A DNA stretch of 23,444 nucleotides from a virus: positions 1 to 23,444 of IMG/VR virus record IMGVR_UViG_3300023174_000647; one strand, given 5' to 3'. The notes beneath the pieces were generated by a model, which was not told the DNA's origin, ran no database searches, and saw nothing but the letters and a program-made list of their open reading frames with translations. Each line of letters starts with the position of its first letter. Positions within the stretch are counted from its first letter, which is position 1. Below are positions 16,181 to 19,932 of this stretch, in pieces. The translations under genes and the position numbers were made by a program.

Positions 16181-16800
16181 AACACATGTGCAGGCAATCT
16201 ATCGCTCTTCTTGGAATTGCAACCCATATGAACCAATCTTGCATTCTCCATCTTGTGTAAACCACCTTTGCTTATTGGAATAATGTGATCAAGACTAACT
16301 CGCTCACGCTTCACACCAGTTTGCCAATCCATAAGTTCACCGCATATCTGACACAACGGTCCGTCACGAACTAGCAAGTCATCAAAGGTAATTTTCTCAC
16401 CAGCCTTGATGATCTCTCGACGAAGATTTGCTTTGTGACTTCCACGACCAGCATCACTCTGTCTGAACTGTGCTTTGCGACAATCAAGACATTGACGATG
16501 CTTACCTCGATTAACTTTATTTTTTTTGTAAGGATGTGGGCAAGCCAAGTTGCCACAATCACAAACTGGCAACACAGAATGGTCGGCGACACCGAAGCGT
16601 TCAAGTTGATGATGGTAGTTTTTGCCACATTCAACGGAACAGAACTTTGGACGATTTGCAAGTTTCACAAAACACCACAAACAATTTTCAGAACTCACAG
16701 AACAATGATAGGCGGTAGTGCAGCAGTGCGCATGCACAAAGGTGCCAACGGCATGGGTCATAAATCGCTCAACCGTCAAACATTTTGCCCACCCTCCCAT
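16165..16800 (-). CDS. HNH endonuclease with N-terminal zinc-finger-like region
   Basis: 211 residues from ATG 16800; an ATG at 16761 is an alternative, since the first 13 residues look unremarkable. N-terminal Cys pairs CLWC and CSVEC, then CDCGNLACPH and CLDC, suggest zinc binding. The HNH core is CQICGELMDW, then SLDHIIPISKGG (catalytic DH), MENARLVHMGCN and KK. Such nucleases cut DNA and are often homing enzymes. The DNA is visibly AT-richer than the terminase genes, with runs of T/A around 16520-16530, which fits recent entry. It ends 16 nt inside the small terminase gene. Packaging-linked HNH proteins (HK97 gp74) are an alternative role, but the adjacent smaller HNH fits that better. 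Confidence 0.82.
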   Translation of the reverse strand: MGGWAKCLTVERFMTHAVGTFVHAHCCTTAYHCSVSSENCLWCFVKLANRPKFCSVECGKNYHHQLERFGVADHSVLPVCDCGNLACPHPYKKNKVNRGKHRQCLDCRKAQFRQSDAGRGSHKANLRREIIKAGEKITFDDLLVRDGPLCQICGELMDWQTGVKRERVSLDHIIPISKGGLHKMENARLVHMGCNSKKSDRLPAHVLCLDQ

Positions 16801-16812
16801 TGTGTACCCGCC

Positions 16813-17112
16813 TTACTTCGCGTCGCCGCGTCGAGAATTGCACGACCGATGCGCAGGTAGGAGCGGTGAATCAATATCACCAGGTATGACGTGATCGGCT
16901 GTCCACGGGTCATCGAGCCGTGCGCCTTCCATACAGATCCAACAGTATTGTGCGGAGTCGCGGACTTGCTTCGCTCGTGCTTGGTAGTTGCCTGAGTAAT
17001 GCGGTCGCTTAGGTTTGGGATGGAGTCGGTTGTAGGTGGTCTGGCAGTCTGGGCATCGGCGTGGGTTTGTTGTCAACTGGCGACATGTGAGACATGGTCT
17101 TGAGATGGTCAT
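16813..17112 (-). CDS. Small HNH endonuclease (packaging-associated type)
   Basis: 99 residues with two N-terminal Cys pairs (CLTC, CPDC), the segment RPHYSGNYQARAKQVRDSA, CWIC, DDPWTADHVIPGD (catalytic DH) and LLPAHRSCNSRRGD. This compact form is very common next to actinophage terminase genes. HK97 gp74-type HNH proteins are needed with terminase for cos cleavage, so a packaging role is likely but inferred. No strong Shine-Dalgarno precedes ATG 17112; the candidate origin repeats lie directly upstream. The composition matches the surrounding phage genes, unlike the larger HNH next to it. Confidence 0.88.
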   Translation of the reverse strand: MTISRPCLTCRQLTTNPRRCPDCQTTYNRLHPKPKRPHYSGNYQARAKQVRDSAQYCWICMEGARLDDPWTADHVIPGDIDSPLLPAHRSCNSRRGDAK

Positions 17113-17131
17113 GGTGTGGTGCCAGAGTGGG

Positions 17132-17324
17132 TCACGCCGTCACGCCAAGTAATACTTGGCGCGTGACGGCGTATGAGACAAATTATGTTTCACGCCGTAT
17201 TTCACGCCGTCAGTGTATCCCAATAGATATATGGCTTTTGCGAGGTAAACGGCGTACGCCGTGGTCACGCCGTGTGTGTTCGGCGTGACGGCGTGACACC
17301 CTGTTTTGTACCGTTTCACGCCGT
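17132..17324. repeat. Cluster of CACGCCGT/ACGGCGTG repeats, candidate replication origin
   Basis: At least nine copies of (T)CACGCCGT or its complement lie in about 190 bp: 17132-17140, 17165-17172, 17190-17198, 17202-17210 (12-bp period with the previous copy), a perfect 14-bp palindrome ACGGCGTACGCCGT at 17249-17262, 17265-17273, 17281-17288, 17288-17296 and 17316-17324. Three copies extend to TTTCACGCCGT. An AT-rich patch (17180-17190, 17221-17240) lies among them. Iteron clusters beside an initiator/helicase gene are typical of replication origins in phages and plasmids; the PrimPol-helicase gene ends at 17339. An operator array is the alternative. Confidence 0.65.
17134..17172. other. 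Long imperfect hairpin at the end of the repeat cluster
   Basis: The arms 17134-17151 and 17153-17172 pair over 18 bp with one 2-nt CG bulge; a few central pairs would open to form the loop. There is no U-tract on either side, so it is not a classic terminator. It incorporates two copies of the CACGCCGT repeat and could extrude as a cruciform in an origin or block transcription between replication and packaging genes. Confidence 0.6.
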
Positions 17325-17349
17325 GCGTGCCATACGGTTCAAAAGTCAT
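17140..17349 (-). CDS. Possible small protein across the repeat cluster (69 aa), uncertain
   Basis: An open frame from ATG 17349, overlapping the PrimPol-helicase stop (ATGACTTTTGA, 11 nt), to a TGA at 17142-17140 inside the hairpin. It starts MTFEPYGTHGVKRYKTGCHA. The GT..RY..GC start loosely recalls small actinophage proteins of the HGTxxRYxxGCxC type, but the second Cys is missing. Four same-direction repeat copies encode [HDY]GVK/T in one codon phase, which hints at coding; other copies are out of phase. No Shine-Dalgarno is seen. It could equally be a chance open frame over non-coding iterons. Confidence 0.35.
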   Translation of the reverse strand: MTFEPYGTHGVKRYKTGCHAVTPNTHGVTTAYAVYLAKAIYLLGYTDGVKYGVKHNLSHTPSRAKYYLA

Positions 17350-19198
17350 TGAACATGGTTTCTTTGGCTTGGTTTTTGCGCATGGTTTGTGCTTTGCGTG
17401 CATCTTTGCGGACGACACGGTAGATGGTTTCGGCTCGGTCTTTGACTTCTGCCCACATCGGGTCGAGTGCCATGGTTGGGTCGATGTTGAGTTCGTCTAG
17501 CATCTTGAGTGCTTGGTCTAGTCGTTCGCCGCCTTTGATGTCTTGTGTGAACATGCGGTGCTGGTCGTGGATGGTGAGGTTGATTCGTTCTGGTATCCAA
17601 GTGTGTCGGTGTTTCTGTCGGAGTAGTACGAGTTGGCCGTCTACCTTTGTCATCTGCCAGACCAGGTCGACATCGTCGTTCTTTGCGCTGGTGCCTCGTG
17701 CGCCTTTCTTGAGGTCTTTGCCTGCGTGGTCGATGCGCATGAGTGATCTGCCTTCTTGTTTGAGGTTCATTGCTGTCCAGCGGTAGAAGTTGCGGACTGT
17801 GTCTGCGTCGTTCTCTGCACCTTCGACTGCTCGCGCAAAGGTGTCGATGATGACTAGGTCGGCTTGGCATGATCGTGCTAGGTCGCAGATCTGTTTGGCT
17901 CCTTCGGGTTTGTCTAGTGATCCGATTGGTGGTAGTGAGGCGTAGTGGAGTAATGAGAGGTCTGTCTTGTTGTCGTATCCCATTGCTGTGAGTCGTTCGT
18001 AGAGTACGGCTTGACTCATCTCGTAGTCCATGTAGAGGACGCTGGTTGGTGGTTTGGCTTCTGTGAAGATTTCTTTGCCGGTGGCGAGTGCTGCTGCGAT
18101 GTATAGCGCGAGTAGTGATTTGCCTGTTCCGCCTGGTGCGAAGATGACGACGAGCTGGTTGCGTGGGATGATCGGTTCGATGAGCCAGTCTTCTGCTGGG
18201 AAGTCTTGTGACCAGAACTTCTGCCAGTTGATGAGGGATGCGAGTAGGTCGTCGGTGGCTGTGGGTTGCTCGACTGGGATTAGGGCTTTGCCTTGTTGGA
18301 GTAAATGTTTTGCGAACGCCGATCTGTCTCCGTTGTGGAACATTTGTGCTGTGTATTGTGCGCGATTGTAAGCACCTGCTGGAAGGTTTGCGATGCTGGT
18401 GGTGAATACTTTGAGGATGTCTTTACCTTGCCATCCTGTGGTGGCGGAGGTGCCTTCTCGTGCGTCTTTGCCTGGTCTGACCCAGTGTGTCTCGCCTGTG
18501 TGGTCGGTGTGGGCTTGTGTCCAGCCGTCTGCTCTTAATAGTTCTGGCCATGTGGTGGCTGCGCAGTAGCGGTCAAGCGGTCCGCCTTCTTCACGGAGAA
18601 GCGATAACGATGGTGGTGTTATCTGATCAGGTAACGGTTGAACCGATAATTGTGGTTGTGTTTTGGTTTTGAGTAGTAGCACCATCCACAACGGCATGTC
18701 GGCTGGTTTGCGTTCGGCGATTGATTTACCTTCTACCCATTCATAGTTTTTGCCGTTCGGATGTTTCGTTGGTGGTGCGAGTACTTGTCCGCCGATGCCT
18801 CGGATGTCGATGCCGATGCCAAGTGTGCCTGATGCTTCGTTGCGGATGGGTTCGTCGGTGAGGAAGTAGATGTGTCGTCCGCCTGAGCCTGTGATGACTT
18901 CTACTGTGTCTGGCAGTTTGCCGTGTAACTGTTCTAGGTCTGCGAGTGTTTCGCTACCGCTGAACTGTTGTCGGTCGTCTATGTCAATGACGATGAGGTA
19001 TCGGTCGCGGAACTCGCCTGTTGCGATTCCTAGTCCGCAGTCTTTGAATTGTCCTTCGAACCATGTGCGGATGGTGGTCGGGTCGGATGTTGCAGCGTTT
19101 TGCCATCCTTGCATCGGCGGTCGTTTCTCGCCTTGTTTGATTGGTATGACGCGGACTTGTTTGTTGGCGTAGGCAAGTGCAGTTGATAGAACGCTCAT
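17339..19198 (-). CDS. PrimPol-helicase fusion (primase/polymerase + RepA/AAA_25 ATPase)
   Basis: 619 residues. Residues 1-175 form a Prim-Pol domain: IDIDD at 71-75 (DxD metal site), GSGGRHIYF at 104-112 (motif II His109), GIDIRGIGGQVLAPPT at 129-144 (motif III Asp131). A linker follows, then a RepA/DnaB-type hexameric ATPase: Walker A APGGTGKS at 354-361, YMDYEMS at 389-395, Walker B DLVIIDTF at 447-454, and RIDHAGKDLKKGARGTSAK in the sensor/finger region. This is the likely replicative primase and helicase of the phage, acting at the fork and perhaps at the adjacent repeat cluster. The start has AAGGAGGG directly before TTCAATG 19198. Length and order match actinophage bifunctional proteins. 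Confidence 0.9.
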   Translation of the reverse strand: MSVLSTALAYANKQVRVIPIKQGEKRPPMQGWQNAATSDPTTIRTWFEGQFKDCGLGIATGEFRDRYLIVIDIDDRQQFSGSETLADLEQLHGKLPDTVEVITGSGGRHIYFLTDEPIRNEASGTLGIGIDIRGIGGQVLAPPTKHPNGKNYEWVEGKSIAERKPADMPLWMVLLLKTKTQPQLSVQPLPDQITPPSLSLLREEGGPLDRYCAATTWPELLRADGWTQAHTDHTGETHWVRPGKDAREGTSATTGWQGKDILKVFTTSIANLPAGAYNRAQYTAQMFHNGDRSAFAKHLLQQGKALIPVEQPTATDDLLASLINWQKFWSQDFPAEDWLIEPIIPRNQLVVIFAPGGTGKSLLALYIAAALATGKEIFTEAKPPTSVLYMDYEMSQAVLYERLTAMGYDNKTDLSLLHYASLPPIGSLDKPEGAKQICDLARSCQADLVIIDTFARAVEGAENDADTVRNFYRWTAMNLKQEGRSLMRIDHAGKDLKKGARGTSAKNDDVDLVWQMTKVDGQLVLLRQKHRHTWIPERINLTIHDQHRMFTQDIKGGERLDQALKMLDELNIDPTMALDPMWAEVKDRAETIYRVVRKDARKAQTMRKNQAKETMFNDF

Positions 19199-19223: not shown

Positions 19224-19682
19224 TTAGTGTTTAGAAATTATGTTCACGATGTCTTGCGGTATCTTTCGTCCGCGCATCTCATACAACCATGAAACGAAGA
19301 CAAGTTCGCTGAGCTTGGTGTCGTTCGCGTTGCTCGGTAGATCAGTGCCGTGTGCGTACACGTTGAGCGGAATGATTTGGAACCATGGCACCGAGTCTTC
19401 TGGTACCTCACCCCACCAGCCGTCTTGGTTGGAGTGACCGTAACGAACAATGAACGCTGGGATGCCTGCCATGTCGCCGAGCGCGGTCAGCGTTCTGTTG
19501 TTCGCCGATTCAAGATAGATGACGCCGTGTTCATGTTTGTAGTCGATCAGCGCGACCGGTACACATTTGTCATACTCAGCGAGGATGAAGTCCAAGTCCA
19601 TTGCTGGCACGTTGCTTCCCCACACTCGATGTCTGCCTGACAGCCAAGCGTCTCGTTTGAAGTGTTGTTCGTTACTTGCCAT
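19224..19682 (-). CDS. PD-(D/E)XK-like protein, probable nuclease (152 aa)
   Basis: Central segment DLDFILAEYDKCVPVALIDYKHE (residues about 29-51) has the spacing of a PD-(D/E)XK core: Asp at the start of a strand, then a strand ending in D-Y-K as the E/D-x-K motif. The N-terminus includes SGRHRVWGSNVPAMD, and the C-terminal half is Trp-rich (QDGWWGEVPEDSVPWFQIIP). AGGAGG lies about 7 nt before ATG 19682. It sits between a helix-turn-helix gene and the PrimPol-helicase, so a resolvase, recombination or replication-linked nuclease role is likely. The catalytic assignment is by eye only. Confidence 0.6.
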   Translation of the reverse strand: MASNEQHFKRDAWLSGRHRVWGSNVPAMDLDFILAEYDKCVPVALIDYKHEHGVIYLESANNRTLTALGDMAGIPAFIVRYGHSNQDGWWGEVPEDSVPWFQIIPLNVYAHGTDLPSNANDTKLSELVFVSWLYEMRGRKIPQDIVNIISKH

Positions 19683-19932
19683 AGTGTTCCTCCTGTTTTT
19701 CGTACCAGTCTGACCAGATGGTCGCTGGGTGCATACCTATTCGACATGCGTAATGATCTGCCTTAAATATGTTCAGATCACTTTCTTCGGGTCGGTTGAC
19801 CCACCGAATGATCGTTCCTCTGCTGACGCCGAACACGTCAGCAAGGAACCGATTGTTTTTGTCCTTCGAGTAGAGTGCCAACAGATTTTGTGCGTTGTAT
19901 GTTGGCAGTGCTTTAGATTTTCTTGTTTTCAT
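19672..19932 (-). CDS. Helix-turn-helix DNA-binding protein (86 aa)
   Basis: A basic N-terminus (MKTRKSKALPTYNAQNLLAL), then FLADVFGVSRGTIIRWVNRP (about residues 29-48), a clear helix-turn-helix with GVSRGTI as turn and recognition helix, and a following segment ADHYACRIGMHPATIWSDWY common in small actinobacterial and phage HTH proteins. AGGAGGT lies 7 nt before ATG 19932. It overlaps the next gene by 11 nt. The likely role is transcriptional regulator or excise-like DNA-bending factor; the target is unknown. Confidence 0.75.
   Translation of the reverse strand: MKTRKSKALPTYNAQNLLALYSKDKNNRFLADVFGVSRGTIIRWVNRPEESDLNIFKADHYACRIGMHPATIWSDWYEKQEEHYGK

Follow-up and report, generated by a model that had tools for sequence, protein, structure and literature searches.

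A repeat array following a phage PrimPol-helicase gene is a probable iteron-type replication origin whose word changes with the helicase C-terminal domain

Results

In the window, i.e., the whole 23,444-nt stretch of virus DNA analyzed here (IMG/VR record IMGVR_UViG_3300023174_000647), a cluster of short repeats next to the PrimPol-helicase gene is quite probably an iteron-type replication origin that would be recognized by the helicase's own exchangeable C-terminal domain. The earlier note on this DNA had placed a likely origin at 17132-17324; the coordinates are right, and the origin reading is supported by the conservation of the repeats in relatives and by equivalent arrays beside the RepA-type helicase genes of unrelated phages.

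A dense array between the replication and packaging genes

The long genes of the window are all on the minus strand, in the order exonuclease-like gene, early genes, PrimPol-helicase, array, HNH1, HNH2, TerS, TerL, and portal, the last assigned by position and sequence only. With the PrimPol-helicase stop codon at 17339-17341 and the start of HNH1 at 17112, the array, already described as directly downstream of the helicase gene at the border of the two modules, fills the 226-bp gap between the replication and packaging genes. Coordinates of the main features are collected in Table 1.

Table 1. Features of the array and its surroundings, in window coordinates
Feature	Position	Strand	Evidence
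Iteron array	17132..17324	.	Nine exact ACGCCGT/ACGGCGT cores plus partial copies; conserved in 24 related contigs
Stem-loop	17134..17172	-	Hairpin core CGCCAAGTATTACTTGGCG (17143-17161) between two facing iterons; z = -6.9
12-bp tandem pair TTTCACGCCGTA/TTTCACGCCGTC	17188..17211		
Spacer with AT-rich stretch, between two iteron groups	17213..17248	.	Alignments of relatives
14-bp palindrome ACGGCGTACGCCGT (two back-to-back iterons)	17249..17262	.	Intact in 20 of 21 distinct aligned type-A arrays
PrimPol-helicase	17339..19198	-	PF09250 1e-40, PF13481 5e-27; RSF1010 RepA 1g8y E 2e-6
HNH-like gene (HNH1), between array and cos-like end	16813..17112	-	PHROG HNH matches E 3e-4; sequence retained when iteron word changes
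Probable cos end	16745..16757	.	11 related contigs stop at the equivalent of 16757 (0-3 nt)

The exact 7-mer cores lie within 17134-17324, in the plus orientation at 17134, 17192, 17204, 17256, 17267, and 17318 and in the minus orientation at 17166, 17249, and 17288, with partial copies at 17140 and 17282. Nine or more copies of CACGCCGT/ACGGCGTG had been claimed, and this number holds for the 7-mer cores, whereas the 23.4-kb window contains only six exact copies of the 8-mer CACGCCGT, each inside 17133-17324. All six exact TCACGCCGT sites in the window's contig are likewise inside the cluster, and exact ACGGCGTGA sites in the relatives are, among the matches listed, confined to one such cluster per contig.

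The density is, as had been judged from the sequence, far above chance. Six copies of CACGCCGT were reached by none of 100 shuffles, and 100 Markov simulations of the whole window produced at most six copies of any 7-mer in 200 bp, against nine cores in the array; when the cluster's own composition was simulated, nine copies were reached once in 2,000 runs. No 7-mer exceeds four copies per 200 bp elsewhere in the window; 7-mers are clustered most densely at the array, both here and in most related genomes. Iteron origins are marked by multiple repeats of one word beside the initiator gene, and nine such repeats are found in the window and 7 to 10 in the relatives.

The tandem pair, the palindrome, and the AT-rich patches are present as first described. 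The hairpin, previously given as 18 bp, is real, but its core is 19 nt and extends to a 39-nt stem-loop of -20.2 kcal/mol as single-stranded DNA. Across lineages the arms of the hairpin vary by matched changes that keep their complementarity, and the core variants among type-A relatives, CGCCAAGTATTACTTGGCG, CGCCATACATAGTATGGCG, and CGCCATGTATAACATGGCG, are each self-complementary. An Rfam search gave only a sub-threshold miRNA match, which we regard as chance. The core of the spacer is AAACCC(T/A)TA in most relatives, also after the word swap described below, and AAAGCCATA in the window itself. The AT-rich stretch in or beside the repeats that belongs to an iteron origin is found in the window and in the type-A alignment; it is weaker in type-C arrays.

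Relatives were collected through PrimPol relatives in IMG/VR and by a DNA pattern scan. Conservation of the repeats, the lack of which would by the earlier note have counted against an origin, is borne out: 24 other environmental phage contigs carry 7 to 10 copies of the same core directly after the PrimPol-helicase gene. Motif columns of the type-A alignment are 97% conserved, compared with 85% for other columns, with a p value of 2e-9 that is indicative only, because the aligned sequences are related. No PrimPol relative was found in host genome contigs. The nearest relative by terminase, Pontimonas phage phiPsal1, carries a replication module of the RepO type that is unrelated.

The word is exchanged together with the helicase C-terminus

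The PrimPol-helicase consists of an AEP primase-polymerase domain (residues 6-170), a RepA-type/AAA_25 helicase domain (residues 331-494), and a C-terminal domain of about residues 520-619. The model of the C-terminal domain has three helices with pLDDT 71-79 and is low-confidence overall (pLDDT 64), the full-length model is poor (pLDDT 47), and a fold search of the PDB with the C-terminal model returned no confident match. We infer that this domain binds DNA.

Nine contigs (L022, L024, L031, L075, L078, L079, and L081-L083) carry a replaced word, ACAAGCAA, and always a different helicase C-terminal domain. Their layout is kept, with a left group of sites, an AAACCC(T/A)TA-like spacer, and a right group with a hairpin, here CGCTATCGTAGATAGCG or CGCTAACGTAGTTAGCG, between facing sites. 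Word type matches helicase C-terminal type in all 34 distinct contigs, the window included (25 with ACGGCGT and nine with ACAAGCAA). The nucleotide identity of L024 and L014 is 94-100% over the first 900 nt of PrimPol, drops to 39-61% over the C-terminus and the array, and returns to 83-87% beyond, which is the pattern of an apparent cassette exchange of C-terminus plus array. None of the features tested, other than the helicase C-terminal domain, follows the word swap; HNH1 and a 152-aa protein are common to both word types. Against this model, C-terminal types CA and CB are about 30% identical and are both paired with the same word, ACGGCGT, and the C-terminal domain adjoins the array, so that linkage alone may explain why the two are inherited together.

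The evidence points to the C-terminal domain of the PrimPol-helicase, rather than a small HTH protein, as the probable reader of the repeats. An improbable alternative is that the array is a set of operators at which a phage repressor or activator controls the late genes from HNH1 on. The words are short, occur in two orientations, and lie between early and late genes, and a small HTH gene (19672-19932) is nearby, but that gene went undetected in many of the contigs with a retained array (G002, L013, L017, L019, L023, and L025), a scan of 16700-17500 found no sigma-70-like promoter and no terminator, and the word changes with the helicase tail and not with a regulator.

A cos-like end close to the array

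Eleven of the 23 related contigs that hold the region (L008, L009, L011, L012, L019, L020, L023, L024, L027, L031, and L034) stop at one homologous place, 41-44 nt past GGAGGGTGGG, regardless of the preceding sequence, and contigs that run through this site carry the conserved word CCATGCCGTTGG. This shared end, which lies just before HNH2/TerS at a distance of 0.4 kb from the array, probably represents a cos end.

The GC skew proposed as a check does change sign in the neighborhood, but within about 150 bp of the cos-like end, 0.4 kb from the array and not at it, which makes it a weak test; because the flip falls at the cos-like end, it gives no independent support for an origin at the array. 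We rejected GC skew as proof of an origin for this reason and because skew follows gene modules in coding sequence. In window positions 16600-17300 and in the relatives, GC and AT skew both flip sharply at the cos-like end though the genes all run the same way.

A cos site usually lies just before the terminase genes, and in phage lambda repeats near cos bind the small terminase. The repeats might by analogy be terminase-binding sites, cosB/cosQ-like, of the cos-like end, which lies just before HNH2/TerS/TerL. We consider this highly improbable, since TerS is swapped in G002 and L025 (30-31% identity) with the word unchanged, and the word is replaced in L022 with TerS still 81% identical, which is not the behavior of a cosB site; moreover, the array is about 1.1 kb and not about 0.4 kb from the end in L027, and in Streptomyces phage mu1/6 the array (14.1-14.3 kb) and the terminase gene (18.9 kb) are separated by more than 4 kb. 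As an observation in its own right, G002 and L025 are otherwise similar phages in which TerS was replaced by a protein about 30% identical.

Very doubtful, too, is a centromere-like partition/incompatibility site or a copy-number control element like P4 crr, with the true origin elsewhere: iterons occur in control arrays too, and P4 possesses a crr in addition to its ori, but there is a single array of this kind per genome in the phage family tested, window included, and the hairpin and AT-rich spacer are present as in origins.

Arrays at the helicase genes of other phages

Loci around RepA-type helicase genes were scanned for 7-mer clusters; the loci were chosen by similarity search, not at random, with helicase genes of other kinds left out. 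Arrays of other words were found at the 3' end of the RepA-type helicase gene in the isolate phages Alteromonas XX1924 and PB15, Idiomarinaceae 1N2-2, and Streptomyces mu1/6, and in all four the array closes, like that of the window, with a hairpin between facing sites. The GGTTCA words of XX1924 and PB15 and the GGTACA words of 1N2-2 are just past the stop codon, and in mu1/6 CCTGCCC occurs 10 times in the 3' coding end of gp21. XX1924 and 1N2-2, whose helicase proteins share 66% identity, show an apparent concerted change of the word, with one and the same base difference at nearly all sites (GGTTCA/GGTACA). The array is the densest 7-mer cluster genome-wide in four of the six complete genomes scanned.

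Placement is not uniform. Karkharias and Peas have AGTGACA words just after the gene, the matched part of which is the primase-polymerase and not the helicase; in MW202711 the array is inside the gene and in MW202742 it is upstream. In L106-L108, eight to nine copies of CCGCGCC are within the helicase 3' coding end and not after the gene. The same scan found no array in Caulobacter RW, Vibrio 1.076, and Roseobacter CRP-810, all phages with a RepA-type helicase, and only weak arrays in Mycobacterium phages.

Several individual loci deserve mention. Arrays of ACCGCGCC and ACCTGCCC lie inside helicase 3' coding ends (L106, 5890-6015; L107, 5890-6061; L108, 5890-6015; L120, 4135-4320), so that they also dictate a low-complexity protein tail. 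MW202742 (L136) has two arrays of the same word, GCGGAAA, one upstream of repA and one just before the large terminase gene (28475-28574 and 34551-34686). In another PrimPol phage contig (L114, 3382-3537), six GCATAATA sites precede the PrimPol gene at a distance of about 0.5 kb on its upstream side. The near-identical Alteromonas phage helicases of L124 and L137 are accompanied by the same iteron word and by completely different hairpins (GGCTCTCTAAAGAGAGCC and CACACCTTATAGGTGTG).

These arrays raise the possibility of a general class of phage origins. In such origins a RepA-type helicase-primase would use an exchangeable C-terminal domain to read a lineage-specific iteron word at the 3' end of the gene that encodes it, and a hairpin flanked by two facing iterons would close the array; in phages infecting Actinobacteria, Alteromonas, and Idiomarinaceae, word and domain would evolve or be swapped in concert. 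We regard the existence of such a class as an evenly balanced proposition.

Discussion

The system of the window works like a fusion of the RSF1010, pRN1, and PLE types, and it departs from the full definition of each: the helicase does not belong to SF3, and a separate RepC was not detected. We did not find the arrangement described in phages in open-licence papers.

RSF1010 is described as having iterons, RepA, and the priming hairpins ssiA/ssiB (PMC4234260). The window shares with the RSF1010 oriV a helicase of the RepA-type hexameric family (1g8y; PF13481), iterons, and a hairpin. It differs in having one fused PrimPol-helicase where RSF1010 has three proteins, RepA, RepB', and RepC, in a primase that is a PF09250 PrimPol, and in a hairpin held between facing iterons; no RepC-like match was found among the window proteins scanned, and the separate RepC and RepB' of the RSF1010 type are absent from that set.

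In the alpha protein of phage P4, a TOPRIM-type primase, a helicase, and an origin-binding domain at the C-terminus are joined in a single polypeptide, and the origin has iterons (PMC4234260). The window likewise has primase, helicase, and C-terminal domain (origin binding being predicted here) in one protein with iterons. The P4 alpha helicase belongs to SF3, and the window differs from the P4 type by its PF09250 PrimPol and AAA_25 RepA/SF4-type helicase.

For replication, pRN1 depends on a stem-loop located 3' of the PrimPol gene, and phages of the Bordetella phage BIP-1/BPP-1 type have a predicted stem-loop at the 3' end of the PrimPol-helicase gene (PMC4234260). As in pRN1 ORF904 and BIP-1, the PrimPol-helicase gene of the window is directly followed by a stem-loop. 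The pRN1/BIP-1 type, however, joins PrimPol, SF3 helicase, and winged helix to a single large 3' stem-loop without iterons there, whereas the window has an iteron array, a short hairpin, and a RepA-type helicase.

In the PLE satellites of Vibrio cholerae the RepA domain and the iterons exchange together and only cognate pairs replicate (PMC8263062). The window resembles the PLE replicon (RepA_N plus iterons) in that an initiator DNA-binding domain, predicted here, and the origin are swapped as a module. It differs in initiator family, and cognate specificity was established by experiment in PLE and is seen by comparison alone here.

For the iteron-type origin that we favor, we envisage that the C-terminal domain would bind the iteron words and load the DNA with rings of the RepA-type helicase. 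Melting of the AT-rich spacer would follow, and the hairpin, exposed as a single strand, may mark or position the first primer, which the PrimPol domain would synthesize before forks depart from the site. Iteron binding, helicase action, and priming at a hairpin, the respective tasks of RepC, RepA, and RepB' in RSF1010, would thereby be united in one protein.

Many phages have a primase-helicase but no recognized initiator. In the contigs compared here nature has in effect carried out a swap experiment, which singles out a likely reading domain together with its DNA word, and the joint swap of word and helicase tail suggests how the enzyme may find its start site. A search rule, to look at the 3' end of a RepA-type helicase gene for the most densely packed short words closing with a hairpin, gave candidate origins in several isolate phages.
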